From assembly GCA_017848965.1 (NCBI GenBank), contig JAFIHA010000027.1, positions 162,493-226,492 of the forward strand: DNA of 64,000 nt, in the 5' to 3' direction. The stretch comes from Dechloromonas aromatica (nom. nud.) (lineage in GTDB: Bacteria > Pseudomonadota > Gammaproteobacteria > Burkholderiales > Rhodocyclaceae). Position 1 is the stretch's first letter. Every line of letters starts with the position of its first letter. Positions 1-46,589 of this stretch are shown one piece after another. The notes under the pieces are model-generated. The model saw only the letters and a list, made by a program, of their open reading frames with translations. It made no database searches and had not been told where the DNA came from. Both the position numbers and the translations under genes were made by a program.

Positions 1-558
1 ATCACCATACATGGTGAGAAAACCAGCCAACACCAGCGGATCCAACTGCCGCTGAAAATCCGGATGAACCAGAATGGCCTTGATGCCATTGCTGAATACA
101 AGCTTTTTGCCGTCCCACCAGTAATACACCCCAGTGTTACCGCTGGCGTCCCTGGCAATCATCAGGGTCTGGGTAGTGTCATCCCATATGGCAAAGCTCC
201 AGTCCCCCATCAGATACTGAACACAGTCCAGCCCGTATTGACGATAGGCCTCAAGAATCAGCCGACTGTCCGGCAACGACTGGTGATTGACCAAACCCAG
301 CCGGGCGCAAAGTTCGCGGCGATTGTCCAGACGGACCCTGGCAGCCAGTATGTGCGGCCCATCTTGCAGTGGCAATTGCTCGCTTTCGTCCTCAGCCGTT
401 ACCTTGAGGAGTCGACCAGCCAAGGCCAATGAACCATGAATGAGCTGCCCGTGAGCATCTGGCCCCCAAGCAGCCATCGCGCGATCCATGCTTGCCAGCG
501 CTACGGCATCAGCTGGTGCTTGATTGGACTGGAAGATGCCGAAAAAGGCTCCGCTCAT
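1..558 (-). CDS. asparagine-synthetase-like enzyme (lasso-peptide cyclase type), N-terminal part
   Basis: The frame is open for 186 codons from an ATG at 558 to the window edge, so the C-terminal ATP-binding half is not visible. What is seen is a class II glutamine amidotransferase-like domain: an N-terminal strand (MSGAFFGIF), an RLDNRREL segment, GDWSFAIWD and a following ARDASG..YYW, as in AsnB-family proteins. Residue 2 is Ser, not the Cys nucleophile of true glutamine-dependent enzymes, so the glutaminase half is probably inactive. Lasso-peptide macrolactam synthetases (McjC type) also lack this Cys. The ATG overlaps the stop of the PqqD-like gene (ATGA), so the two are translationally coupled. 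Inference: ring-forming enzyme of a RiPP cluster. A different AsnB-like amide-forming enzyme is possible. Confidence 0.75.
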   Translation of the reverse strand, partial: MSGAFFGIFQSNQAPADAVALASMDRAMAAWGPDAHGQLIHGSLALAGRLLKVTAEDESEQLPLQDGPHILAARVRLDNRRELCARLGLVNHQSLPDSRLILEAYRQYGLDCVQYLMGDWSFAIWDDTTQTLMIARDASGNTGVYYWWDGKKLVFSNGIKAILVHPDFQRQLDPLVLAGFLTMYGD

Positions 559-827
559 GAAAAACTAACGATACCGTTGTCATTCATTCTTTGGAGAAAA
601 ATGTCCATATCTTTGGCAATGAGTTCCTGCGGGGCATCATATTCTTGGACCAGTGCCTGCAACAAATCCCCTCGGGTTTTCGGTTGTTCCAGCAATTTCC
701 AAATTCTTGCAGCCGTTTTTTCCATTCCGTAATAACAGCCACGCTCGATGCTCATCAGTACGACCTCCTGATCCAAGATGCTCTCCAGAAGCTCCGGGTT
801 GCGTGAAAGGACTGTGCTGTTTTCCAT
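555..827 (-). CDS. PqqD-family RiPP recognition element protein
   Basis: This 90-residue protein has the size and pattern of a stand-alone PqqD/RRE winged-helix domain: an N-terminal strand region, the LMSIERGCYYGMEKTAARIW segment typical of the family (strand, Gly-aromatic, then helix), and a C-terminal helix (DMDIFLQRMNDNGIV). Such proteins bind leader peptides and deliver them to the tailoring enzyme; in lasso clusters the discrete form is called B1. The ATG at 827 has a GGGG purine run 7-10 bases upstream. It is coupled by an ATGA overlap to the asparagine-synthetase-like gene, which supports a shared RiPP pathway. No maturation protease (B2) or transporter is visible because the window ends. 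Confidence 0.8.
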   Translation of the reverse strand: MENSTVLSRNPELLESILDQEVVLMSIERGCYYGMEKTAARIWKLLEQPKTRGDLLQALVQEYDAPQELIAKDMDIFLQRMNDNGIVSFS

Positions 828-1078: not shown

Positions 1079-2902
1079 TTATTCGACGGTGACCGATTTG
1101 GCCAGATTCCGTGGCTTGTCGACATCCGTCCCCTTGACCAGCGCGGCATGGTAGGAAAGCAGTTGCAGAGGAATGACATGCAGGACGGGCGAAAGCTGTC
1201 CGTAGTGCTCCGGCAGATGCAGGATATGCACGCCGTCGCTCTCGGCGATTTCCGAGCCGGCATCGGCAAAGACATACAGTTCTCCGCCACGGGCGCGCAC
1301 TTCCTGCAGGTTGGATTTCAGCTTCTCCAGCAGTTCGTCGTTGGGAGCAACGGAAATCACCGGCATCTCGGCATCGACCAGGGCCAGCGGGCCATGCTTG
1401 AGTTCGCCGGCCGGATAGGCTTCGGCGTGGATGTAGGAGATTTCCTTGAGCTTGAGGGCACCTTCCAGGGCGATCGGGTAATGCCGGCCACGGCCCAGGA
1501 ACAGCGCATCCTTCTTGTTGGCGAATCGTGCCGCCCAGGCTGCGATTTCCGGCTCCAGCGTCAGCACCTTGCCGACGGCGACCGGCAGATGGCGCAGTTG
1601 TTCGAGATGGCAGCTTTCATCCTCGCTGCTCAAGCGGCCTTTGACCTTGGCCAGGACAAGGGTCAGCAGGAATAGCGCAACCAGTTGCGTGGAGAAGGCC
1701 TTGGTCGAGGCGACACCGATTTCCGGGCCGGCACGGGTGATGAAGCGCAGCGCGGATTCGCGAACGATGGCAGATTCCGGAACATTGCAGATTGCCAGCG
1801 TGTTCTGCTGGCCCTGGCTCTTCGCATACTGCAGCGCGGCCAGCGTATCGGCGGTTTCACCGGACTGGGAGATGGCGACGACGAGTTGCCGCGGATTCGG
1901 CACCGAGGTCCGGTAGCGGTATTCGCTGGCGATCTCGACGGTACACGGGATGCCGGCGAGGCCTTCCAGCCAGTAGCGGGCAGTCATGCCCGAATGAGAG
2001 CTGGTGCCACAGGCGAGGATCAGCACGGAATCGATACCGGCCAGGAGTTCCCCGGCTGCGGCCCCGAAAATGCCGGGCTGGATGGTCTTGCTGCCGCCGA
2101 TCATTTCCAGGGTATTGGCCAGCGCTTCCGGTTGCTCGAAGATTTCCTTCTGCATGAAATGCTGGTAATGGCCGAGCTCAACGGCGGCGGCGGAGAGTTC
2201 GGAAACTGTGATCGGCCGGACGACAGGCTGGCCGTCGCCACTGACGACCCGCACCGACTTGGCGGTCAGCTCGGCAACATCACCGTTTTCCAGGTAGATC
2301 ATGTTGCGCGTCACCTGCAGCAGCGCGGAGGCATCGGACGCCGCATAGTTGCCCGCGTCGGAAACCCCGAGCAGCAAGGGCGAGCCTTCGCGGGCGACGA
2401 TGACGCGCTCCGGGAAATCGAGATCGATGACGCCGATGGCATAGGCGCCGATCAGTCGCTGGCAGGCCTGCTGCACCGCCACAAAAAGGTCGGGTTCGGT
2501 GCGCAGGATAAACTCGATCAGGTGAGCAATGCTTTCGGTGTCGGTATCGGAAGTGAACACGTAACCCTGCCCGCTCAGTTCCTGGCGCAAGGCTTCGTGG
2601 TTCTCGATGATCCCGTTATGAACCACCGCGATTTTCCCGGAAACATGGGGATGCGCATTGCGTTCGGAAGGAACGCCATGGGTGGCCCAACGGGTATGGG
2701 AAATGCCGACCGAAGCGCTCAACTCGGCGGCCGCTTTTTCAAGTTCGGCAACCCGGCCCACCGAACGTACCCGGGCAATTTTGCCATCGGCGATGACTGC
2801 GAGCCCCGCGGAATCGTAACCGCGGTATTCCAACTTCTTGAGTCCTTCCACCAGAACCGAAACGATACAACTGCCAGCCGCCGCTACAACGATGCCACAC
2901 AT
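1079..2902 (-). CDS. glmS: glutamine--fructose-6-phosphate aminotransferase
   Basis: GlmS converts fructose-6-phosphate and glutamine to glucosamine-6-phosphate, the first step toward UDP-GlcNAc for peptidoglycan and lipid A. The 607-residue product starts MCGIVV, exposing the Cys nucleophile of the class II glutaminase domain (about residues 2-240). Two SIS sugar-isomerase domains follow, with the CGTSSHSG phosphate-binding loop and SQSGETADT, and the end is KSVTVE, as in the family. Length matches the usual 605-610 residues. glmU is not adjacent. Its 3' end is a classic attachment site for Tn7-like elements, and here low-GC accessory genes begin directly downstream. Confidence 0.98.
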
Positions 2903-3491: not shown

Positions 3492-4895
3492 CTAGGGAAT
3501 GCGAACCTGCGTCTCCGGAAATCTTGCGTGCAGTTTTTCCATCAAGACCTCCTTGGCCCGGCGATCACCATGGACCAGACGGATTTCCGCCGGCTGGTGG
3601 CGCATACGCCCGACGAAGCGCAGCAGGTCGGCCTGGTCGGCGTGCGCGGAATACGCCGCGATGCGGTGAATGCCGGCGCGGATGCTGTGGCGCTCACCGT
3701 CGAGTTCGACATAGCCGCCGCGCGGTCCGTATTGCTGGATGGCGTGCCCGGGCGTTCCGGCCGCCTGATAGCCGACGAAGACGATGTCGTGCCGGGCGTC
3801 GCCGATCATGGCTTTCAGGTAATTGACGATGCGCCCGCCGGAGCACATCCCGCCAGCGGCGATGACGACCGCCGGGCGGGCGCTGCGCGCCAGGTAGGCG
3901 ACGGTTTGCAGATGCTCGTCGTGACCGTCCACCGTATAGAGCTGTTCGAAGGCCAGGGGGTGGCGACCGCTGGCGGTGCGGCGGCGGGCTTCGGCGTCCC
4001 ACAGGTGATGCAGGCGGATATGTGCCTGCGTCAGACGCGCCGCCAGCGGGGAATCGACGATGATCTCCAGCGCCGACCAGTCGGTTTCCGCCGGCTGCTT
4101 TTTCGCGCTGGCGATGACATGCTCCAGGTCGTAGAGGAGTTCCTGGGTACGCCCGATGCTGAAGGCGGGAATGAGGACGCTGCCCCGGTTACGCAGGGCG
4201 CGTTCGATGGTTTCCTGCAGTTGCCGGCGGCGCTGCTTCCGATCAACGTGCAAGCGATCGCCGTAGGTGCTTTCGAGGACCAGCAGATCGGCCCGCCATG
4301 GCGAACGGGGTGCCGGCAGAAGCGCGCTGTGGGGAGCGCCGAGATCGCCGGAAAAGACGATACGCCAGTCGCCTTTGTCGGAACCCGTTGCCAGTTCGCC
4401 GCTGAGGCGGACTTCGACGAAGGCTGAACCGAGAATATGCCCGGCCGGGTGCAGCTTGATCTGCCAACCGGGAAGCAAGGCATGCCAGTGCTTGTAGGGC
4501 AGCGCCACCAACTGGCCGGCGATTTGCTCCAGTATCCGCCGGATCAGGCGTTGGTCCGACGTCACGCCGACCTTCATCGCATCCTCCAGCATCAGCGGCA
4601 GCAGTTCGGCACTCGCCTCGCTGCACAGGATGGGGCCGCGAAATCCGGCCGCCAGCAGGTAGGGCAAACGGCCGAGATGATCGATGTGCACATGGGTGAT
4701 GACGATGGCCCGGATGTGGTCTACGGGAAAGTCGATTGCCGGCGTGCCGGCCGAACCGCCCTCGGCGGACACCTCGGCCCCCTGAAACAGCCCGCAGTCG
4801 ACGAGAATGGCCGTGCCATCCCGGGCGCGCAGTTCGTGGCAGGAACCGGTGACGCCATCGACGGCACCGTGGTGCAGCAACGTGTAATCGTTCAT
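3492..4895 (-). CDS. beta-CASP metallo-beta-lactamase-fold hydrolase (RNA-processing type)
   Basis: This 467-residue protein has the metallo-beta-lactamase zinc motif THVHIDHLG (HxHxDH), further ligands in PAGHILGS and SGDLG, the STYGDR motif, a beta-CASP insertion, and a C-terminal RNA-specificity region with AAYSAHADQ. The family includes CPSF73-like endo/exonucleases and bacterial homologues whose substrates are usually unknown. I chose the ATG at 4895 because GGAG lies seven bases upstream; an in-frame ATG 13 codons earlier lacks a site. It follows the polyketide/amino-ketone cluster on the same strand with a 110-base gap and may be independent of it. Confidence 0.88.
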   Translation of the reverse strand: MNDYTLLHHGAVDGVTGSCHELRARDGTAILVDCGLFQGAEVSAEGGSAGTPAIDFPVDHIRAIVITHVHIDHLGRLPYLLAAGFRGPILCSEASAELLPLMLEDAMKVGVTSDQRLIRRILEQIAGQLVALPYKHWHALLPGWQIKLHPAGHILGSAFVEVRLSGELATGSDKGDWRIVFSGDLGAPHSALLPAPRSPWRADLLVLESTYGDRLHVDRKQRRRQLQETIERALRNRGSVLIPAFSIGRTQELLYDLEHVIASAKKQPAETDWSALEIIVDSPLAARLTQAHIRLHHLWDAEARRRTASGRHPLAFEQLYTVDGHDEHLQTVAYLARSARPAVVIAAGGMCSGGRIVNYLKAMIGDARHDIVFVGYQAAGTPGHAIQQYGPRGGYVELDGERHSIRAGIHRIAAYSAHADQADLLRFVGRMRHQPAEIRLVHGDRRAKEVLMEKLHARFPETQVRIP

Positions 4896-5005
4896 TGCGT
4901 TCTCCGGGGAAGAAAACGGCAATGATATTTGCATTTTTCATGCGGCGCGATTCGGCTGGCGAATTGCTGCCGCCCTCGGGCGAAGCGCAGACTACGGAGT
5001 ACTGC

Positions 5006-6292
5006 CTACGGCTTCACGCCTACCCGCAGCCGGGCGCTGCCCAGCGCTGCCAGCGCCCGCTCCAGTGACTCAGCGCCATGCCCATGGTGAATGCAGAAGA
5101 CCAGGCGTGCCTGGCACTCGTCGACCGCCGGGGAAACCAGCGGCAGTGCCTGGATTCCCTGGCCCGCCAAGTGCTCGGCGAACGCCAGGACCGTCCCGGA
5201 ATCGCCGAGGATGAGCGGAATCACCGCCTGCCCGGCACAGGCGCCGGTGGCGAAACCCTGGGCATGCACGCCGGCCAGAAACTGCCTGGCGTTTTGCCGC
5301 AGCAACGCCGGGCGCGCCGGTTCGCTGCCCAGGATGCGCAGCGCCTCGCGCGCGGCGGCGGCCATCGCCGGCGCCAGCCCAACGCTGTAAACGAAACCCG
5401 GGGCCGAATATTTCAGCAGGTCGATCAGCGCCCGGCTGCCGGCGATATAACCACCCGCCCCGGCCAGTGCATGCCCGAGGCTGCCCGACCAGAAATCGAC
5501 ATCGTCGCCGGCCAGCGCCCAGTGCTCGCGGCTGCCGCGGCCGCCTTCGCCGAGCACGCCCAGCGCATGGGCGTCATCGATCATCAGGAAGGTCCGGTAA
5601 CGCCGTTTCAGGGCGACCAGGCCCGGCAAGTCACAGATGTCGCCGGCGACCGGGGACAGTCCGTCAGCGACGATCAGCACCCGCTCGTAATCGCCGCGCA
5701 CTCCGGCGAGCAGTTTTTCCAGCGCCGGCAAGTCGTTGTGCGGAAAGGCCCGCCGCGTCGCGCCGGCCAGACGGACGCCCTCAAGTACGCTGAGATGACA
5801 GAACTGGTCATGGACGACAAGATCCCGCGGGCCGAACAGATGGCCGATCGTCGTTTCGTTGCCGGCATAACGGCTGACAAAAACCAGCGCATCGTCCACT
5901 GCGTAGATTTCCGCCAGCGCCGCTTCGAGTTCGCGCAGCAAGGGGCGCTCGCCGGCCACCAGACGACTGGCCGAGACCGAACTGCCGTATTGATCGACGG
6001 CCTGCTTGGCCGCTTCCCGGACGCGCGGGTCGCTGGCCAGGCCCAGATAGTCGTAGCTCGCGAAATCGCCTTCTCCCTGCCCCGGAGCAAGTGCCGGTTG
6101 GCTGGACTGTAGCGACGAGACGATCTGCCGATAGGCAGGAAAGGCATCGAAGCGACAGAACTGGTCGATATCCGGTGACGCAGCGGACGGACTTGGCGCG
6201 GACGTAACTTCGCCGGTTTCCCGGCGGGCGGCAAAGCGTTTGACGAGTTTCTCCCGAAGATCGCCGGCGAGAACGGACATGGGCTTTTTCAT
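5006..6292 (-). CDS. catalytically defective alpha-oxoamine synthase paralogue
   Basis: A 428-residue PLP-fold protein clearly paralogous to the gene immediately upstream (shared YLGL, GVRL.GATRRAFPHND, GRG, GLAPA blocks). Numbering from ATG 6292, the Schiff-base Lys position is His274 (SLGHALAGAGG against TLSKSFAGCGG in the partner), the PLP-stacking His is Tyr142 (SRYAGN against SGHATN), and the EGLYSMDGD motif has become DGLSPVAGD. Asp239 and His242 of the PLP pocket remain. It therefore cannot form an internal aldimine in the usual way. Inference: a non-catalytic partner subunit, as LCB1/SPTLC1 is to LCB2 in eukaryotic serine palmitoyltransferase. ATG 6292 lies four bases past the upstream stop; a TTG at 6313 is possible. 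Confidence 0.85.
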   Translation of the reverse strand: MKKPMSVLAGDLREKLVKRFAARRETGEVTSAPSPSAASPDIDQFCRFDAFPAYRQIVSSLQSSQPALAPGQGEGDFASYDYLGLASDPRVREAAKQAVDQYGSSVSASRLVAGERPLLRELEAALAEIYAVDDALVFVSRYAGNETTIGHLFGPRDLVVHDQFCHLSVLEGVRLAGATRRAFPHNDLPALEKLLAGVRGDYERVLIVADGLSPVAGDICDLPGLVALKRRYRTFLMIDDAHALGVLGEGGRGSREHWALAGDDVDFWSGSLGHALAGAGGYIAGSRALIDLLKYSAPGFVYSVGLAPAMAAAAREALRILGSEPARPALLRQNARQFLAGVHAQGFATGACAGQAVIPLILGDSGTVLAFAEHLAGQGIQALPLVSPAVDECQARLVFCIHHGHGAESLERALAALGSARLRVGVKP

Positions 6293-6296
6293 GGTT

Positions 6297-7592
6297 TCAG
6301 CGGCAACGGGCAATCTCGTCGAGTGTGTGATCGATCTGGGTCTGCGTATGGGCGTAACAGATGAAGAAACGCAGGCGCGCCAGCCTCTCCTCTACCGCCG
6401 GATGGATGATCGGTTGCACGCTGATTCCTTGCCGAGCAAGTTTCTTTGAGAGACTGACCGCCTTCAGCGAACTGCCAGTAATCAGAGGAACGACGCAGTA
6501 GCCCTCGGAGAGTCCGGTATTCATGCCACGGAGTCGAGCCTGTTCGAGAAAATAGTGGCCCGCCGCACGTAACTGCTCCAGCCGCCAGGGCTCATCGAGC
6601 ATGATCCGGATGACCGCCGATGATGCTGCCGCCAGCGCCGGCGCCAGACCGACGCTGGCATTGTAGCCCGGTGCCGCGTAGCGGATCAGGTCGACCAGCG
6701 CCTGCTCGCCAGCGATGAAACCGCCGCAGCCGGCGAACGATTTGCTCAGGGTACCCATCCAGATGTCGACGTCACCAGCCGGCACGCCGCAGTGTTCGTG
6801 AATACCCCGACCGCTGCTACCCAGCACACCGAGCGAATGCGCCTCGTCGACCATCAGGAAGGCGCGGTGCCGCCGCTTGATTTCGACAAAGCTCGCCAAT
6901 GCCGGCGAATCGCCGTCCATGCTGTAGAGCCCTTCGATCACCACGAGCACCCGCTCAAAGTTGCCCCGGATTTCGGTAAGCAGGCGATCCAGCGCGGCGG
7001 GATCGTTATGGGGAAAGGCGCGGCGCGTCGCTCCCGAAAGACGGACACCTTCGATCACGCTGTTATGGACCAACTGGTCGTGAATGATCAAATCCTTCGG
7101 TCCGAACAGGAAACCGATGGTATTGACGTTGGTGGCGTGGCCGCTGGCGAAGGTCACCGCGTCATCGACGCCGTACAGGCCGGCGATCGCGGTTTCCAGT
7201 TCGCGCACCACGGCCACCTCGCCGGCCACCCGGGGCGCGGCCGCCAGCGAGGTACCGTAACGGTCGATCGCCGCCTTGACTGCGGCACTGACGCGGGAAT
7301 CGCCGGAAAGGCCGAGGTAGTTGTAGCTCGAAAAATTGAGCATGCTCCGTCCGCCAACCGTCGTCGTCGCGCCTGCCACGCCCTCATGGCAAATGAAGTA
7401 AGGGTCGTCGATCCGCAACTTTTCCGCTGCAAGACGAAACAATGCGATTTTGGTATAGCCGGGAAACTTGTCGATCCGATAGAACTTTTCCGGTACGTCG
7501 AGTCCGCCATCAGCCACCATCGGCCTTTCGCCCGTATTTTTGGCCAAATGGATGGCTGTCTCCTTGCTGCGCCCCGCCGAGAAAATTGCCAT
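6297..7592 (-). CDS. alpha-oxoamine synthase, PLP-dependent (serine palmitoyltransferase/AONS-like)
   Basis: Alpha-oxoamine synthases condense an acyl thioester with an amino acid, losing CO2, to give an alpha-amino ketone. The 431-residue product has all key residues: the SGHATN stacking His152, EGLYSMDGD at 220-228, DEAHSLG with Asp249 and His252, and the PLP lysine Lys284 in GTLSKSFAGCGG. It starts three bases after the polyketide synthase stop, so the acyl donor is probably the polyketide on that enzyme's carrier domain, and the reaction would release the chain. The amino-acid substrate cannot be read from sequence. It is followed closely by a paralogue without the lysine. A BioF role in biotin synthesis is unlikely: there are no other bio genes. 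Confidence 0.9.
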   Translation of the reverse strand: MAIFSAGRSKETAIHLAKNTGERPMVADGGLDVPEKFYRIDKFPGYTKIALFRLAAEKLRIDDPYFICHEGVAGATTTVGGRSMLNFSSYNYLGLSGDSRVSAAVKAAIDRYGTSLAAAPRVAGEVAVVRELETAIAGLYGVDDAVTFASGHATNVNTIGFLFGPKDLIIHDQLVHNSVIEGVRLSGATRRAFPHNDPAALDRLLTEIRGNFERVLVVIEGLYSMDGDSPALASFVEIKRRHRAFLMVDEAHSLGVLGSSGRGIHEHCGVPAGDVDIWMGTLSKSFAGCGGFIAGEQALVDLIRYAAPGYNASVGLAPALAAASSAVIRIMLDEPWRLEQLRAAGHYFLEQARLRGMNTGLSEGYCVVPLITGSSLKAVSLSKKLARQGISVQPIIHPAVEERLARLRFFICYAHTQTQIDHTLDEIARCR

Positions 7593-7595
7593 GGG

Positions 7596-10500
7596 TCAGG
7601 CTTTCCCCTGCAAATCATTGACCACCGACTCCAGGATTTCCGGTGCAATATCCTGCGCATGCTGCGCCGCCATGCCGGCCGCCGTGCTGGCAAGATCGTT
7701 GACCTCGCCACCACCGCCGAGACGCTCGACGATGCGCTCGGTGACGCGATCGACGGTCGGCCCCTCGTTCAGCATCATCGCCGGCACCTGGACGCCGAAG
7801 CGCTTTTCCAGACCGAGGGCGAGTTCGACGCCCATCAGCGAATCGAGGCCGAGGTCGTGCAGCGAACGGCCGGCGTCGATCCGCTCGGGGTTGATCGCCA
7901 GCGTCTGCGCGACTTCCTGGGTGACCAGCGAACGCACCAGTTGCCTGACCTCATCCGGCGACTTGCCTTCGATCAGGCTGCGGAAGTCCTCGAGGTTCTC
8001 CGGACCGCTCGCCGCTTCGTCACCGTTGCGCCAGAGCGCGGCGAAACGCGGGCTGTGACTGGACGGCAGCAGGCGCGCCAGCGTCGGCCAGTGGAAATCG
8101 GCCAGCGCCAGATTGGGGCTGCCGGCGGCGAGCACTTCGCCGAGCATGGCGAGCGCCGTTTCCACCGCCAGCGGCGCCGCACCGAGACGGCTGGCGAGGC
8201 TGTCCTTGACCGCCTGGTTGCGGGTCAGGTAACCGGCATCGCCGATCGGCCCCCAGCCGACGCAGGTCGCCGGCAGGCCGCTGCGGCGACGCTGCACGGC
8301 CAGCGCCTCGAGCCAGGTGTTGGCGGCGACGTAGGAAGCCTGCCCCGGGTTGCCGATGCTGGTGGTGATAGAGGAGTAGAGGACGAAATGCTCGAGCGGG
8401 CAGTCGCGCGTCAGTTCGTGCAGATGCCAGGCGCCCTTGATCTTCGGTTCGAGGACGCGGGCGACACGCTGGGCGTCGAGGTTGCCGAGCAGTGCATCGT
8501 CGATCACCATCGCCGCGTGGAAGATCCCCTTCAGCGGCGGCAGGTCGGCCAGACCGGCCAGCATTTGCGCTACCGCGGCACGGTCGGCGACGTCGCAGGC
8601 GACGATGCGGACACCGGCACCAAGCGCTTCCAGTTCCTGGCGAACGACTTCGGCCCCCGGCGTCTCGGCGCCGCGCCGGCTGACCAGGACGAGCTGGCCT
8701 GCGCCATGGCTGGCCAGCCAGCGGGCGGTTTCAAGACCGAAACCGCCGACGCCGCCGGTCAGCAGGTAGCTGCCGGCAGGATCGAACTGCGCCACATGGC
8801 GCTGCGCAAACTGCGGCTGGGCATCGACCCGGGCGTCCTCGAAGGAGACGACGACCTTGCCGATCTGCCGTGCCTGCTGCATGTAGCGGAAGGCATCGAC
8901 CACCTGTTCCGCCGGGAAGACGCGTGCCGGCAGCGGCGTCAGTACGCCCTCGCCGAACAGCGCCATGACTTCGCCGAACAGGCGGGCGGCGAGCGCCGGG
9001 CGAGCGATCAGCAACTGGTCGGCGTCGATGCCGAAATAGCTGATGTTGTCCTTGAACGGGCGCAGGCCGATCGGCGTGTTCTCGAAGAAATCGCGCTTGC
9101 CGAGTTCGAGGAAGCGCCCGAAGGGACGCAGGATCTGCAGGTTGCGGCGGATCGCTTCGCCGGCCAGCGAGTTGAGGACGACATCGACGCCCTCGCCGCC
9201 GGTCAGCGCCAGGATGTCCTCGGCGAAAGCCAGGCTGCGTGAATCGAGCACATGGTCGGCGCCGAGCAGTTCGACGAAGAGGCGCTTCTCGTCGCTGCCA
9301 GCGGTGGCGAAGACCTCCGCGCCGAGATGGCGGGCCAGTTGCACGGCAGCGATGCCGACGCCACCGGCGGCGCCATGGATCAGCACACGTTCGCCGGGTT
9401 GCAGGCGGGCCAGCTCCTTGAGCGCGTAATAGACGGTGAAGAAGACGGTCGGTACCGTCGCCGCGGCGGCGAAGGACCAGCCGTCGGGAATCGGCATCAG
9501 CGCATCCTCGCGGGAGATGACATGGCTGGCGAAGCAGGCCGAACCGAAGCCCATCACGGGATCGCCGGGCCTGAAGCCGGTGACTTCGCTGCCGACCCGG
9601 CTGACCACGCCGGCAAACTCCAGGCCCAGACTGGCGCCGGCGAAGCCGTGCTCGACCGCCTCGTCGGGCAGGAGGCCCATGACGTACATGATGTCGCGGA
9701 AATTGAGGCCGGTCGCCCGCGGGCGGACCTCGATCTCCTTGGCGCCGAGCGTCGCGGCCGGCGTCTGCAGCCAGAGCAGGTTGCGCAACTGGCCGGGAAC
9801 GCGGAAATCGAGGCGGTAGCGGGATTCGCTTTCGGCAGCGGCCGGCGGCGCGGCGACCTGTGTCGCGCGCATGCGCAGCACCTGGCGCCCCGACGAACGC
9901 AGGATGATCTCGCTTTCGCCATCGGGCTGCGTCAGTTCGGCGCCCAGCGCGGCGACATCGCCAGTCAGCGGGCAATCGATCAGTTGCAGCTTGAGTCCGG
10001 GCATCTCGTTCATGACCACCCGCGCCAGTCCCCAGACGGCGGCCAGCGCCGCTTGTACCGGCAATTCGTCGGCCAGCCCGTCGACCGGCGCCCCACCGCC
10101 GAGCAACAGGTGCAGTTGCGGCGCCGGGCTACGCGCGGCAAGCTGATGGACCAGTTCGAAGAAGGCCAGCGTCGGTCCCGTATCGTCGGCTGCAACAGCG
10201 GCCGGCAGCCAGACAATGTGCGCCGGGCTGGCGGTGGCCGGCAGTTCGCTGGCAATTTCCACGTTCTTGCCGCTGGCGGCCAGTGCGGCCTGCAACGCGA
10301 CAACGCCGGTGGCAGCCGGATCGGCAGCGAGCAGCAGCCAGTGTTCGGCGACGGCTGGCGGCGATTCCGGCGCTGGCTCGCCTGCGCGCGCGCCGCCTTC
10401 GGCCAGCAACAGGTAGCTGCCGGCAGCGAGGTCGGCGGCGGCCGGTTCGTACCAGAGCCGGCAGGTGGCAAAACCGCTGCCTTCGAGCAGTGTCTGCCAG

Positions 10501-13500
10501 GCGCCGGCCCCGGGCAGCTGGCGGCCCGCAGCGAGCAGGCCGGCGGCCGGATCGGCCGCCCGTTCGCTGATGGCAAGCAGGCCGCCCTCGGCCAGCACGC
10601 CCTGCAGCATGTCCAGCAGCGCGCGCGGGTTGGCGCTGGCCGACAAGGCATGGCGCAACAGGATGAGGTCGAAATCACCGCCCTGTAAGGCCGCGGCGTC
10701 GAGACGCGCGGCCTCGGCATCGAGCGCGGCGACCTGCACCCAGTCGCGCTCCAGGTAATCGCGGCTCAGGCGGTCGCGGATTTCCGGGTCGGCCTGGGCG
10801 ATCCAGTATTCGATGCCGGTGGCGTCGATGGCACCGGCGATCTGGCGCGGAATCGTCGTCGCGCCGGCGGCGATTTCCAGAACGCGCAGGCGGCGCGCCG
10901 GGTCGCGTCGGCGCATCGCCTCGACGACCAGGGTTTCGCAGGCGACGCGGCTGGCCAGGTAACTCAGCGAATCGTCGTGCAGGGTTTCCCATTGCGGGCT
11001 GCGCGCGAGCGCGGCAGCAAGCGCACCGGCATCGCCACGCCCGGCCAGGACATCGGCCAGCCGGCTGCCGGCGACGGCAAGCAGGATCAGCTCGGCCAGG
11101 CTGTCCGGGTACTCGGCAAGCAGAGTGCGCCAGATTTCGGCTGGTGCCGGCAAGGCATCGGCATCGAGTTCGGGAACGCCGTCATCGATCTGCAGCAGTT
11201 CCTGACTTTCCAGCAGAGTCCGTGTCCAGGCGAACAGGGCCCGCTGCGCATCGCTGGCAAAGCCCTCGCCGGCAAGGAAGCGCCCGGCATCCTCCGGGGC
11301 CTCGCGCAGCAGCCCGGCCATCGCCTGCAGCGCGTAGGCGGTGACCAGCGCGTCGAGCAGCGGCAGGGCTTCGCCGATAGCCGACTGGCGCTGCAGGCGC
11401 GGCTCCTGGGCAAGCAGCGCCCGGTCGAGGATGGCCGCCCAGTCGGCGCCGCCAGGGAAAGCTGCCTGGCGGGTTGCCGACGGATGCGCCGCCAGAGTCG
11501 GCACGATTTCCCAGGCCGCCGGTGCCGTCCGCCCTTCCCGGCGCAGTGCCGCCGAACGGAAGCGGCAGCCGGCAAGGCGGGCGACGCACTGGCCGGCGGC
11601 GTCGAACAGTTCGAAATCGACAAGCACCGAACGCAGGCTGCGCTTGCGCAAGTAAGTACGGAATGCGACGACCGGTCCAGCGCCGAGGCGCAGTTGCAGG
11701 CGACCAATCTTGACCGGTAGCGAGGGAACACCGTTGCCGGACTCAATTTCCGAACGTTGAAAATCGAGCAGCGACTGGAAGCAGACATCAAGCCGAGCGG
11801 GGGGCAGCAGCCAGGCGTCGGTTTCGCCGCTGGCGACGAACTCGCCGCTCAACCGGGTATCGTCGTGGCAGGCACGAGCCAGGCCACGGAAATCGCCGCC
11901 ATAGTCGAGGCCGAGTTCACTGGCCAGCCGGTAGTGGGTGTCGTGATCGATTTCGGCAACCGGGTCGATGGCGAGCAGCGGACGCGTCGTCAGCGCCACG
12001 CTCATCGTACCGAGCAGGCGGCCGGCGGCGTGCAGCGACCATTCGTCCTCGCTCAGCCGTTGCCGGCTGCGGATCTGGAAACTGCCGTCGCGCTGGTTGA
12101 GGTCGAAGCGGATGCAGCGTCCATGGGCTTCGTCGAAGACCACCGGCGAAATGATGTCGAGCTGTTCGACCTCGATGCTGTCGCCGCCGTAGAACTGCTG
12201 CGACGCGGCCAGCGCCATCTCGACGTAGGCGGCGCCGGGCAGGACGACGGCACCGCCGACGCGGTGGTCGGCCAGCCAGCGGTCCACGCGCGGATCGAGC
12301 AGGTTCTCCCAGGCCGCCGGGGCGTCCTTGAGCACCCAGCCGAGCAGCGGATGAACGCGGTCGCGCTCGATCAGTCGGTAGCCCTCGGTCGAACTCTCCA
12401 GCCAGAAACGTTCGCGCTGCCAGGGATAGAGGGGCAGATCGACAAAACGCCCGGCCACCGGGAAAACGGCCTCCAGGCGGCGGACACCGCCGAGCACTTG
12501 CAAGCGCAGGACAAGTTCCTCAACTCGGTCCACGCCATCGTCGTTCTTGCGTAGCGAAGGCAGCAGGCGGCCCTGAACCTTGGCCGCCGCCAGGCATTCC
12601 TTGAGGTAGCGCTGGAGGATGGCGTTGGGGGAAATCTCGACGAAGACGTTGGCGCCGGCAGCGGCCATGGCCGTGATGGCGTCGGCAAAGCGCACCGGCT
12701 GCCGGATGTTGTCCCACCAATAAACGGCATCGAGCGGTTTGACGCAGGCCTGCCCGGTCACCGTCGAGAAGAACTGCGTTCCCGAAACCAGCGGCTGCGG
12801 CGCGAAACCTGCCAGCGAGGCAAACAGCATCTCGCGCGTCGGCTCCATTGCCGCGCTGTGGAAGGCGTAATCGAGGTCGAGCAGTCGGAAGGCGGCGCCG
12901 CGCGCGCGCAACAACGGCGACAATTGTTCGAGCGCGGCGAGCGGGCCGGATACGGTAAGGTTCTGCGGACTGTTGATGCCGGCAACTTCGATGCTGTCCA
13001 GGCCGTGCTCGGCGAGCAAGGCACGCAGGCTTTCCTCGCCGATGGCGACGGCGGCCATCCGGCCGGCGCCGCGGGTCAGCGCCTGGGCGGCGCTGCGGGC
13101 GCAGATGACGCGCACCGCTTCGTCGCGGCTCAAGGCGCCGGCCGCCCAGGCGGCGGCGATTTCGCCGACGCTGTGGCCGGCAGTGCAATCGGCGACGATG
13201 CCCTGCTCGCGCAACAACACGGTCAAGGCGTACTGCAGTGCGAACAGCGTCGGCTGCGCGACCCCGGTGTCGTCGAGACGAGCCGATTCGGCACCGGCCT
13301 GCAATTCGCCGAGCAAGGAAATTCCCGACTGCGCCTGCACCGGCGCTTCCAGTTCCTCGATCAGTTGCCGGAAGCGCGGGCTTTCGGCAAGCAGCATCTG
13401 CCCCATGCCGACCCACTGCGAACCGTTACCGGCATAGATGAAGGCCAACTTGCCGGCCACCGCTGGCGCTTCGTCGACCACGACACCGGCGGCTTCGCCG

Positions 13501-15041
13501 CTTCCAGCGTAGCGCTGGAGAAGCTGTACGGCCGCTTGCCGGTCGTCAATATGTACGGCCAGACGGTGTTCGAGCCAGTCGCGGCGGTGCGCGGCGCACC
13601 AGGCGAGATCGTAGCTATCGACCGGCTCGGCGAGGCGCGCCGCGTAAGCAGCGGCCAGCGCACGCAGGGCGGGCACGCTGCGCGCGGAAAGGACGAGCGG
13701 CAAACCCGTTCCTGCTGGTGCGTTGGTGGCAGCGGCGTTTGGCCGGAACTCTTCGAGCAGCACGTGGGCATTGGCACCGCCGAAACCGAAGGAATTGACG
13801 CCGACCATGAGCGGCTTGCGGGCAGCGCGTTCGGCGAGCGAATACGGTGCATCGACTGCGTGCAGGTGCCAGCCAGCGAAGTCGATCTTCGGATTGGGCG
13901 TTTCCAGGTGCAGCGACGGCGGCACTTCCCGGTGCTTGAGCACGAGCAGCGCCTTGACCAGCCCTGCCATGCCGGAAGCCGGCTCGAGGTGGCCGACGTT
14001 GGTCTTCACCGAACCGATCGGCAACGGATCGGCGGCGGCCCGCGCCTGGCCGTAGACGGCGCCGATGGCGGCGGTCTCGATCGGATCGCCGATCGCGGTG
14101 CCGGTACCGTGGGCTTCCAGATAATCGACGGCAGCAGGGTCGAGGTCGTGACGGGCCAGCACCTGGCGCATCAGTTCGACCTGGCCGTCGATGCTGGGAA
14201 TGGTCAACCCGGTCTTGCGACTGCCGTCGGCATTGACGCCGGAGCCACGGATCACGGCGTGAATCCGGTCGCCGTCGGCGATTGCCTGGGACAGCGGCTT
14301 GAGCAGCAGGAGTGCCCCGCCCTCGCCGCGGACATAGCCATCGCCGCTGGCGTCGAAGGTCTTGCAGCGGCCACCGGCGGAGAGCATCGAGGCCTTGGTG
14401 AAGCCGATGAAGGGATGCGGATGCAGCAGGATGCTGACGCCGCCGGCCAGAGCCAGCGACGCCTCGCCGGTACGCAAGGCGGTGCAGGCGTGATGCAGCG
14501 CGACCAGCGACGAGGAGCAGGCGGTATCGACCGCCAGCGACGGCCCATGCAGGTCGAAGACGTAGGAAAGCCGGTTGGCGGCGATACTGAGCGTGTTGCC
14601 GGTCATCGAATGGGCGCCGAGGACGGCGACATCGTCCATCGAACGGCTGGCGTAATCATTGCTGGAAATCCCGACATAGACCGCGCAATCGCTGCCGGCC
14701 AGCTGACTGGCCGGGGTACCCGCGTTCTCCATCGCTTCCCAGGCCAGTTCGAGCAACAGGCGTTGCTGCGGGTCGAGGCTATTTGCCTCGCGCGGTGAGA
14801 TGCCGAAAAAGGCGGCATCGAATTCATCGATCCGGGAAAGCACACCAGCGGCAAAAGTGATGCTGCGCCCCGGCTCGCTGCGCTGCGGATGCTGCAGCCG
14901 TTCGGTTGCCCAGCGGGATGCGGGAACCTCGGTAACCAGGTCACGGCGGCCGGCAAGCGCCTGCCAGAACTCCGTTTCGTTGGACATATCCCCTGGGAAA
15001 CGGAAGGCGACCCCGACGATCGCAATGTTGTCGTTGTTCAT
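7596..15041 (-). CDS. highly reducing iterative type I polyketide synthase, no thioesterase
   Basis: A single 2481-residue protein. Order: ketosynthase (about 5-430; Cys175 in DTACSSS, His311 in EAHGTGT, His351 in NVGHLEPASG), acyltransferase (about 530-840; Ser624 in GHSVGE, YAFH at 725-728), dehydratase (from about 897; His926 in the HxxxGxxxxP motif and a later LDVCF Asp), a methyltransferase-like region with a degraded SAM motif (VLEIAAGATT, about 1400), a structural half-ketoreductase, enoylreductase (IHGAAGGVGIAAVQLA), ketoreductase (TGGVGGFG; Ser-Tyr-Asn in YSSI..SYVAAN), and one acyl carrier domain (GLDSLMG, Ser2401). One module with a full reducing set implies iterative use and a saturated chain. 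There is no release domain; the downstream oxoamine synthase genes probably perform release. No phosphopantetheinyl transferase gene is nearby. Confidence 0.95.
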   Translation of the reverse strand: MNNDNIAIVGVAFRFPGDMSNETEFWQALAGRRDLVTEVPASRWATERLQHPQRSEPGRSITFAAGVLSRIDEFDAAFFGISPREANSLDPQQRLLLELAWEAMENAGTPASQLAGSDCAVYVGISSNDYASRSMDDVAVLGAHSMTGNTLSIAANRLSYVFDLHGPSLAVDTACSSSLVALHHACTALRTGEASLALAGGVSILLHPHPFIGFTKASMLSAGGRCKTFDASGDGYVRGEGGALLLLKPLSQAIADGDRIHAVIRGSGVNADGSRKTGLTIPSIDGQVELMRQVLARHDLDPAAVDYLEAHGTGTAIGDPIETAAIGAVYGQARAAADPLPIGSVKTNVGHLEPASGMAGLVKALLVLKHREVPPSLHLETPNPKIDFAGWHLHAVDAPYSLAERAARKPLMVGVNSFGFGGANAHVLLEEFRPNAAATNAPAGTGLPLVLSARSVPALRALAAAYAARLAEPVDSYDLAWCAAHRRDWLEHRLAVHIDDRQAAVQLLQRYAGSGEAAGVVVDEAPAVAGKLAFIYAGNGSQWVGMGQMLLAESPRFRQLIEELEAPVQAQSGISLLGELQAGAESARLDDTGVAQPTLFALQYALTVLLREQGIVADCTAGHSVGEIAAAWAAGALSRDEAVRVICARSAAQALTRGAGRMAAVAIGEESLRALLAEHGLDSIEVAGINSPQNLTVSGPLAALEQLSPLLRARGAAFRLLDLDYAFHSAAMEPTREMLFASLAGFAPQPLVSGTQFFSTVTGQACVKPLDAVYWWDNIRQPVRFADAITAMAAAGANVFVEISPNAILQRYLKECLAAAKVQGRLLPSLRKNDDGVDRVEELVLRLQVLGGVRRLEAVFPVAGRFVDLPLYPWQRERFWLESSTEGYRLIERDRVHPLLGWVLKDAPAAWENLLDPRVDRWLADHRVGGAVVLPGAAYVEMALAASQQFYGGDSIEVEQLDIISPVVFDEAHGRCIRFDLNQRDGSFQIRSRQRLSEDEWSLHAAGRLLGTMSVALTTRPLLAIDPVAEIDHDTHYRLASELGLDYGGDFRGLARACHDDTRLSGEFVASGETDAWLLPPARLDVCFQSLLDFQRSEIESGNGVPSLPVKIGRLQLRLGAGPVVAFRTYLRKRSLRSVLVDFELFDAAGQCVARLAGCRFRSAALRREGRTAPAAWEIVPTLAAHPSATRQAAFPGGADWAAILDRALLAQEPRLQRQSAIGEALPLLDALVTAYALQAMAGLLREAPEDAGRFLAGEGFASDAQRALFAWTRTLLESQELLQIDDGVPELDADALPAPAEIWRTLLAEYPDSLAELILLAVAGSRLADVLAGRGDAGALAAALARSPQWETLHDDSLSYLASRVACETLVVEAMRRRDPARRLRVLEIAAGATTIPRQIAGAIDATGIEYWIAQADPEIRDRLSRDYLERDWVQVAALDAEAARLDAAALQGGDFDLILLRHALSASANPRALLDMLQGVLAEGGLLAISERAADPAAGLLAAGRQLPGAGAWQTLLEGSGFATCRLWYEPAAADLAAGSYLLLAEGGARAGEPAPESPPAVAEHWLLLAADPAATGVVALQAALAASGKNVEIASELPATASPAHIVWLPAAVAADDTGPTLAFFELVHQLAARSPAPQLHLLLGGGAPVDGLADELPVQAALAAVWGLARVVMNEMPGLKLQLIDCPLTGDVAALGAELTQPDGESEIILRSSGRQVLRMRATQVAAPPAAAESESRYRLDFRVPGQLRNLLWLQTPAATLGAKEIEVRPRATGLNFRDIMYVMGLLPDEAVEHGFAGASLGLEFAGVVSRVGSEVTGFRPGDPVMGFGSACFASHVISREDALMPIPDGWSFAAAATVPTVFFTVYYALKELARLQPGERVLIHGAAGGVGIAAVQLARHLGAEVFATAGSDEKRLFVELLGADHVLDSRSLAFAEDILALTGGEGVDVVLNSLAGEAIRRNLQILRPFGRFLELGKRDFFENTPIGLRPFKDNISYFGIDADQLLIARPALAARLFGEVMALFGEGVLTPLPARVFPAEQVVDAFRYMQQARQIGKVVVSFEDARVDAQPQFAQRHVAQFDPAGSYLLTGGVGGFGLETARWLASHGAGQLVLVSRRGAETPGAEVVRQELEALGAGVRIVACDVADRAAVAQMLAGLADLPPLKGIFHAAMVIDDALLGNLDAQRVARVLEPKIKGAWHLHELTRDCPLEHFVLYSSITTSIGNPGQASYVAANTWLEALAVQRRRSGLPATCVGWGPIGDAGYLTRNQAVKDSLASRLGAAPLAVETALAMLGEVLAAGSPNLALADFHWPTLARLLPSSHSPRFAALWRNGDEAASGPENLEDFRSLIEGKSPDEVRQLVRSLVTQEVAQTLAINPERIDAGRSLHDLGLDSLMGVELALGLEKRFGVQVPAMMLNEGPTVDRVTERIVERLGGGGEVNDLASTAAGMAAQHAQDIAPEILESVVNDLQGKA

Positions 15042-15156: not shown

Positions 15157-15927
15157 TCAAGTCAGACGCCGCCGCACCATTTCAAACAGGCAGACGGCCG
15201 CTGCCGCGCCGACATTGAGCGATTCGACGGCGCCCGGCATCGGAATCCGGATGCGCAGCCCGGCGCGCTCGATCAGCGCCGGGCTGACGCCTCGTCCTTC
15301 GGCACCGAACACCCAGGCGAGCGGCCCGGCCCATTGCGCGGCGTAGAGCGAAGTGGCCCGCTCGAGCGTGGTCGCCAGCGTCGTTCCCCGGTAGACGTCC
15401 ATGAAATCGGCGAGGTCCCGGTCTTCATGGATGCTCAGGACAAAATGCGCGCCCTGCCCGGCACGCAGGACTTTCGGCGACCAGGCGGCGGCACAGCCGG
15501 CGGACAGCAGCACCTGGCCGACGCCGGCGGCAGCGGCGCTGCGCAGCAGGCTGCCGAGGTTGCCGGGGTCCTGGACGCCATCGAGGAGGACGGCATCAGC
15601 GTCGGGATCGGGAGCCACCGCTGGCTGCGGCGTGTCGACGACGGCGAGCAGGCCGCTCGGCGTATCGACGATACCCAGTTCGCGCATCAAGGCGTCGCCG
15701 ATCACCGTGCAGTCTCGGCCAGCGAGCCAGTCGGCGATCTCGCCGCCGCTCAGCGCCGATTCGGCGACCACCAGATCGCTCAACGGGCCGCGCTGCGCTT
15801 CCCAGGCCTGCGCCAGATGCAGGCCGTCGAGCAGCGTCCGTCCCCTCTTCTTGCGCTCGCGACCGGATTCGGCCAGCCGCTTGAGCTGCTTGTAGTAGGC
15901 GTTGTCGCGTGACTGGATCAGCTTCAC
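15157..15927 (-). CDS. TrmH/SpoU-family RNA 2'-O-methyltransferase
   Basis: The 256-residue product has an N-terminal substrate-binding domain and the SPOUT knot motifs: [13 protein letters not shown] (motif 1), [10 protein letters not shown] (motif 2) and [18 protein letters not shown] (motif 3). It likely methylates a ribose 2'-OH in rRNA or tRNA with SAM; the target cannot be told from sequence. It overlaps the rnhB stop by four bases (ATGA), so it is the last gene of the lpx-rnhB run. The polyketide cluster begins 115 bases downstream. Confidence 0.9.
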
Positions 15928-44198: not shown

Positions 44199-45242
44199 TC
44201 AGAAGCGGCGGCCGATGGTGAAACTGCCGTATACCGGCCGCTCGCGCTGACCATCGAATTCGCGGCTGCGGAAATAGCGGGCGAAGGCGAATTTCCATTC
44301 GCCGTAGGTGAAGGCCATGCCGAAGCCGAGATCGGTGACGAACTTGCGCTTGTCCACATGGTGGCTGTCGCGGAAGGTGTTGCCGTCGAGCGTGATGTCG
44401 CGCAACACCCAGCGGCTGTCCAGGTTGATGAACAGGTGTCCGCCCCAGGCCTGCTCGCCGCCGCCGCGCGGCGCCGCGTTTTCGCCGGCCGGGCGCAGCG
44501 GCGCGCTGCCGAAATCGTCCGGCAGATGCCAGCCGAGCCGCCATTCGAAACCGGCGTTGGCATGCGTGCCGAAATTGCCCAGCGCGCCGCCCCAGTGCAG
44601 GATCAGGTCGTGATCGAGATCGCCGGCCAGCGGTGCGTAGTCGAACTTGCGCAGACGCTCGTGGATGAACTGGAACACCGGCTCGTTGTGCAACTGATTG
44701 TCCCAGCCGCGAAAGCGGCTGACGCCGATCAAGTGGTGCCAGGCGTCCTGGACCTCGTGACCTAACGCCGCCGGACCGACGACGCCGAGGCGCAGGTGGC
44801 TGGCGCGCAGGCTGTCGCCGTCGCGCGCGTTGTAGCCGACGCTGAAGAGCAAGGCCGCGGCGTAGGGCCGGTCGTCGGCGATCACCGTGCGCGGCAGCTT
44901 GTCGGCCGGGGTATACAAGGCCTGCTGCACGGCGACCACCATGTTGCGCTGCTCGTAGGCGCCCGGCTGCAGCCAGTCGAGATAGCGGTTGAGCGCGCGG
45001 GCCGGCGGCGACAGACAGGGATCGCCCACATAATCGGCAATGTTCGGCGACACCGCGGTCAGTTGCAGGCCGTTGCTGTAGCCTTGGTCCTGGCCGCGCC
45101 CACCGAACAGGTCGTTATCGACGCGCAGCGCCAGCGACCAGTTGCGCCGCTCCGGGCATTCGTCGGCGGCCGCTGGCATGACCGTCAGCAACGCCGGAAG
45201 CAGCAGCAGAAAACGCGGCAGTGGAGGAATCGACGACGGCAT
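44199..45242 (-). CDS. lpxR: LpxR-family lipid A 3'-O-deacylase
   Basis: LpxR removes the 3'-acyloxyacyl chain from lipid A in the outer membrane, altering surface charge and immune recognition. The 347-residue precursor has a signal peptide (RFLLLLPALLTVMPAAA), then LALRVDNDLFGGRGQDQGYSNGL containing the Asn-Asp and Ser positions of the active site, RPYAAALLFSVGY, and EVQDAWHHLIG with the expected Gln and His. It ends in phenylalanine (TIGRRF), as for a barrel protein. The start at 45242 was chosen by the signal peptide; the frame is open far upstream by chance. Confidence 0.88.
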   Translation of the reverse strand: MPSSIPPLPRFLLLLPALLTVMPAAADECPERRNWSLALRVDNDLFGGRGQDQGYSNGLQLTAVSPNIADYVGDPCLSPPARALNRYLDWLQPGAYEQRNMVVAVQQALYTPADKLPRTVIADDRPYAAALLFSVGYNARDGDSLRASHLRLGVVGPAALGHEVQDAWHHLIGVSRFRGWDNQLHNEPVFQFIHERLRKFDYAPLAGDLDHDLILHWGGALGNFGTHANAGFEWRLGWHLPDDFGSAPLRPAGENAAPRGGGEQAWGGHLFINLDSRWVLRDITLDGNTFRDSHHVDKRKFVTDLGFGMAFTYGEWKFAFARYFRSREFDGQRERPVYGSFTIGRRF

Positions 45243-45383
45243 CGGAAGGTCCGGTGAAGGAACGCCCCGATGATAACCGCCCTTTTGCGCCGCATGCCAC
45301 CAGCCGCCGGGCAACGCAGCGGAACGACCCCGGGTCGTCCGGTTTGGGCGATAATCGCGCCTTTCGACAGCTCCTGTAAGCCA

Positions 45384-46571
45384 GTGAATCCCCACCTCGC
45401 CCAACTCCAGCCTTACCCATTCGAAAAGCTGCGCGCGCTGTTCGCCGGTGTCACCCCCGACCCGCAATACCGGGAAATCAAGCTGTCGATCGGCGAGCCG
45501 CAGCACGCGACGCCGCAGTTCATCATGGACGCGCTGCACGCCAACCTGCGCGGCCTCGCCAACTACCCGACGACGCAGGGCATCCCGGCGCTGCGCCAGG
45601 CGATCGCCGCCTGGTGCGGCCGCCGCTACGACATCGCGCTCGATCCGGAAAGCGAAATCCTGCCGGTCAATGGCTCGCGCGAAGCGCTGTTCTCCTTCGC
45701 CCAGGCCCTGATCGACCCGAGCCGGGGCAGCCCGATCGTCGTCAGCCCCAATCCCTTCTACCAGATCTATGAAGGCGCGGCCTACCTGGCCGGCGCCGAG
45801 CCGCGCTTCCTGAACAACCTGCCCGAGAACGGCTTCGCCTTCGACTACGACCAGTTGACGCCCGCCGAATGGGCGCGCGTGCAGCTGTTTTACGTTTGCT
45901 CGCCGGGCAACCCGACCGGCAAGGTATTGTCGCTCGCCGACTGGAAGACGCTGTTCGCCTTGTCCGACAAGTACGGTTTCGTCATCGCCTCCGACGAATG
46001 CTATTCGGAAATTTATTTCGACGAAGCCAACCCGCCGATTGGCGGCCTGCAGGCGGCGAAGCTGCTCGGCCGCAATTTCGACCGGCTGGTGATGTTCTCC
46101 AGCCTGTCGAAACGTTCCAACGTGCCCGGCATGCGTTCCGGCTTCGTCGCCGGCGATGCGAAGCTGCTCAAGGCTTTCCTGCTGTATCGCACCTACCACG
46201 GCTGCGCCATGGCGCCCCCGGTGCAGGCCGCCTCGGTCGCCGCCTGGAACGACGAGGCGCACGTGCTCGACAACCGCAACCAGTACCGCGAGAAATTCGC
46301 CGCCTGCACGCCGCTGATCGCCTCGGCGCTCGGCACCGCCATGCCGGACGCAAGTTTTTATCTTTGGGCGAAAACGCCAATTGCCGATAGCGAATTCGCC
46401 CGCGGCCTGCTCGAACACTATAATGTCGTAGTCCTGCCCGGCTGTTTCCTTGCCCGCGATTCCCAGGGCGTCAACCCGGGTGCCGGTTTCGTCCGCATCG
46501 CCCTGGTCGCCGGCCTGGAGGAATGCCTGGAAGCCAGCCGCCGCATCGTTCAATTCACACAACAACTGTAA
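45384..46571 (+). CDS. dapC: succinyldiaminopimelate transaminase
   Basis: DapC aminates N-succinyl-2-amino-6-ketopimelate in lysine and peptidoglycan precursor synthesis. The 395-residue fold-type I aminotransferase begins at a GTG (MNPHLAQLQPYPFEKL). Visible features are IGEPQHATPQ, SPNPFYQIYEG, CSPGNPTGKVLS, ASDECYSEIYFDE and the PLP lysine in SSLSKRSNVPGMRSGF. The GTG start gives the family length and follows a CTCCTGTAAG region with no strong site. dapD follows after 18 bases. Confidence 0.93.
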   Translation: MNPHLAQLQPYPFEKLRALFAGVTPDPQYREIKLSIGEPQHATPQFIMDALHANLRGLANYPTTQGIPALRQAIAAWCGRRYDIALDPESEILPVNGSREALFSFAQALIDPSRGSPIVVSPNPFYQIYEGAAYLAGAEPRFLNNLPENGFAFDYDQLTPAEWARVQLFYVCSPGNPTGKVLSLADWKTLFALSDKYGFVIASDECYSEIYFDEANPPIGGLQAAKLLGRNFDRLVMFSSLSKRSNVPGMRSGFVAGDAKLLKAFLLYRTYHGCAMAPPVQAASVAAWNDEAHVLDNRNQYREKFAACTPLIASALGTAMPDASFYLWAKTPIADSEFARGLLEHYNVVVLPGCFLARDSQGVNPGAGFVRIALVAGLEECLEASRRIVQFTQQL

Positions 46572-46589
46572 CCAAGAGAGACCCGCCAA

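Follow-up and report, generated by a model that had tools for sequence, protein, structure and literature searches.

The locus examined here, from Dechloromonas aromatica, raises the question of why a polyketide synthase (PKS) gene should be followed by genes for two paralogous alpha-oxoamine synthases (AOS1 and AOS2), only one of which keeps the PLP lysine, and of whether the pathway they belong to is new. The sequence-only reading of the locus had proposed a new pathway, which the precedents PfSgaAB, rkp and wcb, as reported, rule out (PMC12134224, PMC3557214, PMC4881576, PMC3908369). The PKS-AOS sphingoid pathway is a known, common bacterial type. What is novel is the AOS pair, whose two members show reciprocal losses; the inactive paralogue had been noticed in that reading but was given no role there.

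We analysed a 64 kb stretch of DNA (the window), the relevant features of which are collected in Table 1. The coordinates agree with the earlier description of a PKS followed by two oxoamine synthase paralogues with gaps of 3 bases (PKS to AOS1) and 4 bases (AOS1 to AOS2), the latter counted from the ATG at 6292. The ORF finder began AOS2 at a TTG (6313), and we favour the ATG because it fits both the gene spacing and the genus relatives in the alignment. Upstream of the PKS lies a gene for a SpoU-type rRNA methyltransferase (15157-15927), and past AOS2 come beta-CASP and VanZ-like genes and one that we take, from its sequence, to be glmS-like. Scans for promoters and terminators did no better than chance. 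The beta-CASP protein (window 3492-4934), which adjoins AOS2, has matches at E 1e-100 in 4 of the 76 genomes of the genus, this one included; its best NCBIfam matches, a type VII CRISPR-associated protein and ribonuclease aCPSF1, are both below cut-off.

Table 1. Features of the PKS-AOS locus; nucleotide positions refer to the window, amino acid (aa) positions to the PKS.
Feature	Position	Strand	Description
PKS	7596..15041	minus	2481 aa, monomodular reducing type I, without thioesterase match
AOS1	6297..7592	minus	431 aa, alpha-oxoamine synthase of SgaB/RkpG type, PLP lysine K284; putative catalytic subunit
AOS2	5006..6292	minus	428 aa from ATG 6292, His at lysine position; putative non-catalytic subunit
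AOS1 codon 284	6741..6743	minus	PLP lysine
AOS2 codon at lysine position	5471..5473	minus	His, residue 274 from ATG 6292
AOS1 residues 117-123, degenerate interface loop (SmSPT Ala79-Asn85)	7224..7244	minus	S117A, S119A, R120P; AOS2 has S, S, R
AOS1 residues 311-314, second interface segment (SmSPT Met271-Ala274)	6651..6662	minus	Y312A in AOS1; Y in AOS2
AOS2 residues 7-24	6221..6274	minus	N-terminal motif conserved in genus relatives
PKS domains	aa: KS 4-380, AT 534-848, DH 897-1164, ER 1767-2065, KR 2090-2267, ACP 2373-2437		Pfam
PKS degenerate MT-like stretch	aa 1385-1499		weak Pfam match

Pfam bears out the full reducing domain set with a single carrier domain that had been claimed for the PKS, and thioesterase is absent from the 20 Pfam families listed for it. 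By eye, the catalytic motifs are intact, like those of most of the 19 relatives in an alignment of 20 synthases. The glycine-rich motif that we take to be the mark of a methyltransferase is missing, again by eye, from the MT-like stretch of all 20; with the motif thus degenerate, active C-methylation by the PKS is thought unlikely. The enzyme is 63% identical to the closest genus PKS, and its end branch in the PKS tree is 0.54, versus a median of 0.39. Behind the ACP is a C-terminal tail of 44 residues (2438-2481; window 7596-7730), which is roughly 45 residues long in all 20 aligned synthases and carries a Gln-His pair at the same spot in 17 of them, as judged by eye. A role in docking to the AOS is possible for this tail.

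PfSgaAB of Pseudomonas fluorescens MYb115 is reported to make C24, C26 and C28 sphinganines (PMC12134224, 2025). According to that report, PfSgaB condenses serine with acyl-CoA, the recombinant protein is active alone and a dimer by size, there are 6,101 homologous PKS-AOS clusters, and phosphoglycerol sphingolipids are formed. PfSgaAB resembles our locus in that an AOS gene comes after that of a monomodular PKS, iterative there and presumably here, and a sphinganine-type product is expected here. The two differ in that the Pseudomonas cluster holds one AOS and the SDR SgaC, whereas the present one has two reciprocally decayed AOS and no adjoining SDR was found. Two SDR references were unmatched in the 64 kb window, and the genome as a whole has 12 SDR-like matches, the best at 32% identity (E 5e-19). 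Our sequence comparison used other Pseudomonas members (L135, L145 and L078) rather than MYb115 itself. The earlier proposal of an iterative PKS whose product an AOS releases as an amino ketone is thus supported by homology to the PfSgaAB system, for which this was shown experimentally (PMC12134224), while its novelty is not.

The PKS-AOS pair is also shared with the Sinorhizobium rkpA-rkpG-rkpH genes (rkp-1) and the Burkholderia wcbR clusters. rkpA and rkpGHIJ are reported to make and move a lipophilic carrier or anchor for the capsule (PMC3557214), rkp-1 is likewise tied to a capsule lipid carrier (PMC4881576), and in the capsule clusters of Burkholderia, among others, the PKS gene is reported to be wcbR/rkpA (PMC3908369). 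Unlike these capsule-tied clusters, the present genome gave no match to two capsule-export markers. The Sinorhizobium meliloti record that we used has consecutive genes for a PKS (by Pfam domains), an AOS and an SDR; it gives products only, the names rkpA, rkpG and rkpH being ours, and is labelled pSymB though it is 3.7 Mb long and rkp-1 is chromosomal in the literature. In the fungal fumonisin-type FUM1/FUM8 pathway, too, an AOS offloads a reducing PKS.

Clusters were compared across relatives, and separation of the PKS and oxoamine synthase genes, which the sequence-only reading had named as evidence that would count against it, is not the rule. In 64 of the 80 named loci, no more than 600 bases separate the AOS match from a PKS upstream of it, and the number rises to 74 when up to 2.5 kb is allowed. 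Of the other six, three have a PKS match further upstream (3.5-5.7 kb) whose aligned part stops short, and three lack one at E 1e-30; at E 1e-8, some PKS match is present in the retrieved stretch of 79 loci. The order set of 20 loci has a PKS within 600 bases upstream in 19, and the last one begins at a contig end. In 41 of the 80 named PKS-AOS loci (L091-L170), the retrieved stretch also holds an LTA synthase family-like gene (Pfam Sulfatase domain), whose product could be the transferase that makes the phosphoglycerol sphingolipids described in PMC12134224.

Both AOS1 and AOS2 match bioF, serine palmitoyltransferase (SPT) and glycine C-acetyltransferase models below the model cut-offs (for AOS1, E 7e-91 against bioF and 8e-81 against SPT), and both match solved SPT and KBL structures. 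They are ∼46% identical to each other, and AOS1 is 66% identical to the closest genus AOS. At E 1e-5 the genome holds three AOS; the third, located elsewhere, shares 34% identity with AOS1. The PLP lysine, K284 in AOS1, is replaced by histidine in AOS2. Lysine occupies this position in 128 of 128 other members of the alignment (two far rows, L003 and L021, were removed before this count and also carry it) and in 56 of 56 further loci from class and phylum searches (57 read, with the window's own set aside). The active/inactive pair claimed earlier is thus seen in the residues themselves, from which activity and inactivity are predicted. As judged by sequence, a pair in place of the single lysine-bearing AOS is a departure within the SgaAB/RkpA-RkpG family, with AOS1 retaining the lysine feature.

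The active site of bacterial SPT is reported to lie at the dimer interface and to include residues from both chains (PMC6148460); in the Sphingobacterium multivorum enzyme (SmSPT), the Gly80-Asn85 loop and the Met271 region are placed at that interface (PMC10196870). From the latter description we compiled a trans set (Ala79, Gly80-Asn85 and Met271-Ala274) and a cis set (Ala26-Pro30, Asn52, Tyr54, Phe114, His138, Ile183-Met186, Asp210, Ala212, His213, Thr241, Ser243, Lys244, Gly250 and Phe338). The trans label is our reading of the wording of PMC10196870 on two hydrophobic cores, together with the position of SPTLC1 Cys133, which is said to face the SPTLC2 lysine across the interface. Ala26-Pro30 could not be mapped in the pairwise alignment and so dropped out of the cis set. 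Columns at least 90% conserved in the 128 relatives were scored, which left 8 trans (interface) and 14 cis (lysine-side) columns.

AOS1 has lost four of the eight trans columns (S117A, S119A, R120P and Y312A) and none of the 14 cis columns. AOS2 has lost none of the trans columns and seven of the cis columns (H152Y, Y223S, S224P, M225V, T281S, S283G and K284H). In conserved columns elsewhere, AOS1 has lost 12 of 127 and AOS2 28 of 127. Fisher P values were 0.003 for the two-by-two table, 0.005 for the AOS1 trans losses and 0.022 for the AOS2 cis losses, all of them descriptive, as the sets are small and were fixed after the deviations had been seen. Across 12 variants of the analysis (four reference sets by three thresholds), P ranged from 0.0006 to 0.029. 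The 128 other members show a mean loss of 0.12 in either set; trans losses number none in 120 of them and one in six, and the remaining two, the far AOS relatives L055 and L053, lose three and six of the eight interface positions yet keep the lysine. R120 is present in all 128 and absent from AOS1. Because of this loss, a homodimer of AOS1 would be expected to have altered sites. AOS2 further lacks R408, and the stretch ahead of residue 85 is shortened.

These complementary losses are what speaks for a single composite active site in a physical heterodimer. On balance, we lean toward an obligate AOS1-AOS2 heterodimer that would offload a sphingoid base made by an iterative PKS. The PKS would work repeatedly on its single carrier domain to give a long saturated acyl chain, which an AOS, and not a thioesterase, would release by joining the acyl thioester to an amino acid, by homology serine, with loss of CO2, yielding a 3-ketosphinganine-type base. 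Following tandem duplication of the AOS gene in this lineage, the copies would have decayed in complementary fashion and now form a heterodimer with one complete active site, to which AOS1 would supply the PLP lysine and the lysine-side residues, and AOS2 the loop and segment reaching across the interface and probably an N-terminal element docking on the PKS. We infer from the sequences the heterodimer, the serine substrate, the saturation and length of the chain and the docking role.

Several features bear on whether AOS2 is a working protein. Of 17 N-terminal columns that are unanimous in six genus rows, AOS2 keeps 11 and AOS1 none. AlphaFold2 places a low-confidence helix at AOS2 residues 7-25 (block means 39-54), and the motif is a possible PKS docking element. 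The AOS2 model has a mean pLDDT of 83.5 and scores low at residues 1-12, 20-39, 62-72 and 301-303. The reading frame is intact over 428 codons, and in a rough simulation of neutral drift from AOS1, stop-free runs numbered 10, 3 and 1 of 200 at 75, 66 and 50% identity. Third-position GC is 0.77 for AOS2, compared to 0.74 for AOS1 and 0.82 for the PKS. Together, the intact frame, GC content, simulation and pLDDT favour a retained protein, though they are no measure of selection and AOS2 is seen in one genome only.

Where did the second copy come from? In a tree without distant rows, AOS2, AOS1 and seven genus AOS form one group (96/93), which returns (98/95) when distant rows are included and plasmid rows left out. 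A sister grouping of AOS1 and AOS2 reaches only 87/40 and 90/62 in these two trees, respectively. With distant rows and three plasmid rows, AOS2 falls outside the family core. Trees without AOS1 put AOS2 near the genus but weakly (55/5 with seven genus AOS; 97/94 in a 12-row set). None of the trees contains eukaryotic rows. In the tree without distant rows, the end branches of AOS2 (2.74, the longest in the close family) and AOS1 (1.13) stand against a median of 0.27. The long end branches and the placement in the genus group suggest that the gene was duplicated in tandem in this lineage and that both copies then changed fast; in two of the three trees that include AOS1, the duplication falls within the genus group. 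The idea that AOS2 is an ancient or foreign branch, as one tree would have it, was rejected given its place inside the genus group in the other two.

An initial contig scan with AOS2 as query gave no match. AOS matches were found in 8 of 75 other genus genomes, 17 of 296 family genomes and 25 of 398 order genomes, one per genome, at thresholds (E 1e-60, as for the genus, or 1e-70) too strict to catch a second copy that had diverged further. At E 1e-50, searches of the class (369 genomes) and the phylum (398), both counts including this genome, gave two or three matches in some genomes, many of them other AOS types, and among the matches listed a tandem AOS pair occurs in this genome only. A gene spread among relatives was rejected, as no such second copy turned up in these searches. 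AOS2 is most likely a very divergent duplicate, specific to its lineage in so far as the genomes searched hold no second case. We also considered a conserved insertion site, but the beta-CASP neighbour is too patchy for the site to be traced by it.

A reader might prefer to see here an ordinary SgaAB/RkpAG-type pathway in which an AOS1 homodimer works and AOS2 is a functionless, decaying duplicate. We consider this unlikely but worth taking seriously: at the thresholds used, no genome of the genus, family and order sets other than this one has more than a single AOS match, all AOS aligned from these other genomes carry the lysine, recombinant PfSgaB is reported to be an active dimer without a partner (PMC12134224), and AOS2 has the longest end branch of the close family. 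It is hard to reconcile, however, with an AOS2 that keeps every interface column and 11 of the 17 N-terminal columns while losing half of the lysine-side ones, with the intact AOS2 frame, or with the altered sites expected in an AOS1 homodimer without R120. Alternatively, the altered loop may have changed the amino acid or acyl specificity of AOS1, leaving AOS2 as a regulatory pseudoenzyme or scaffold. S117A, S119A and R120P do sit where HSAN1 changes in SPTLC1 (Cys133; SmSPT Ala79) are reported to alter the amino acid used (PMC6148460, PMC10196870), and AOS1, by its end branch, is itself fast-evolving. Such a change would leave unexplained why AOS2 retains exactly those positions that AOS1 has lost, and we regard it as rather improbable.

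A third possibility concerns the product, which could serve a capsular polysaccharide as its lipid anchor, a role suggested for the rkp/wcb clusters (PMC3557214, PMC4881576). The genomic setting of the relatives fits this. Three genes recur close to the AOS in all eight genus loci, coding for an ABC ATPase (PF00005), an ABC-2 permease (PF01061) and a protein without Pfam match that we read as KpsE-like; some of these loci also have Poly_export proteins and a mannose-phosphate guanylyltransferase nearby. When only loci of 19 kb or more are counted, one or more capsule-type references are matched in 17/17 of the order set and 28/58 of the named loci, although the ATPase and export references may match other systems too; the KpsE-like protein alone is matched in 16 of the 17 and 13 of the 58, respectively. 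The KpsE-like protein and PF05159 (Capsule_synth) are both present in 4/4 tested genus relatives with the pair, yet both are unmatched in the present genome, where a gap is possible as the assembly has 68 contigs. In three genus genomes without the pair, the KpsE-like protein was found in none and PF05159 weakly in one. The 64 kb window matches nothing in the capsule-type reference set besides the PKS. An anchor role here is thus very improbable. By these named markers, the ones searched genome-wide in the 68 contigs, this lineage seems to have uncoupled the pair from polysaccharide export, which suggests PKS-made sphingoid synthesis freed from the export linked to it in genus relatives.

The obligate heterodimer that we favour has a counterpart in eukaryotic SPT (SPTLC1/SPTLC2), where likewise one subunit has the PLP lysine and the other does not, and where an active site at the interface is expected. 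The present pair differs in sharing an operon with a PKS, and AOS2 groups with AOS of its own genus in two of the three trees that include AOS1. A 2018 review describes the SPT heterodimer as unique among AOS family members, the rest being homodimers (PMC6148460), and we found no bacterial heterodimeric AOS among the open-licence papers listed, judged mostly on titles and the beginnings of abstracts. We give about even chances that the division into a catalytic and a dead subunit arose here independently and recently, through duplication and reciprocal loss, with the dead subunit holding the PKS-docking element. A recent bacterial counterpart with single-copy sisters in its genus would show how catalytic and dead subunits become mutually needed. 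As the proteins here look soluble and are bacterial, they might also serve as a simple system for studying what SPTLC1, the subunit mutated in HSAN1, contributes.

Elsewhere in the window, we noted a lasso-peptide-like cluster, at positions 1-827 (minus strand) and, in locus L228, at 9416-12820. It includes a PqqD-like protein (NCBIfam lasso_PqqD_Bac, 56.6 bits, under the cut-off of 80), a GATase_7-domain protein that by eye is asparagine synthase-like and, also by eye, a 66-aa ORF that is a candidate precursor and an HPr-kinase-like ORF. A 952-aa ORF (window 44199-47057, minus strand) matches the outer membrane protein LpxR over its C-terminal third (PF09982, E 3e-97).
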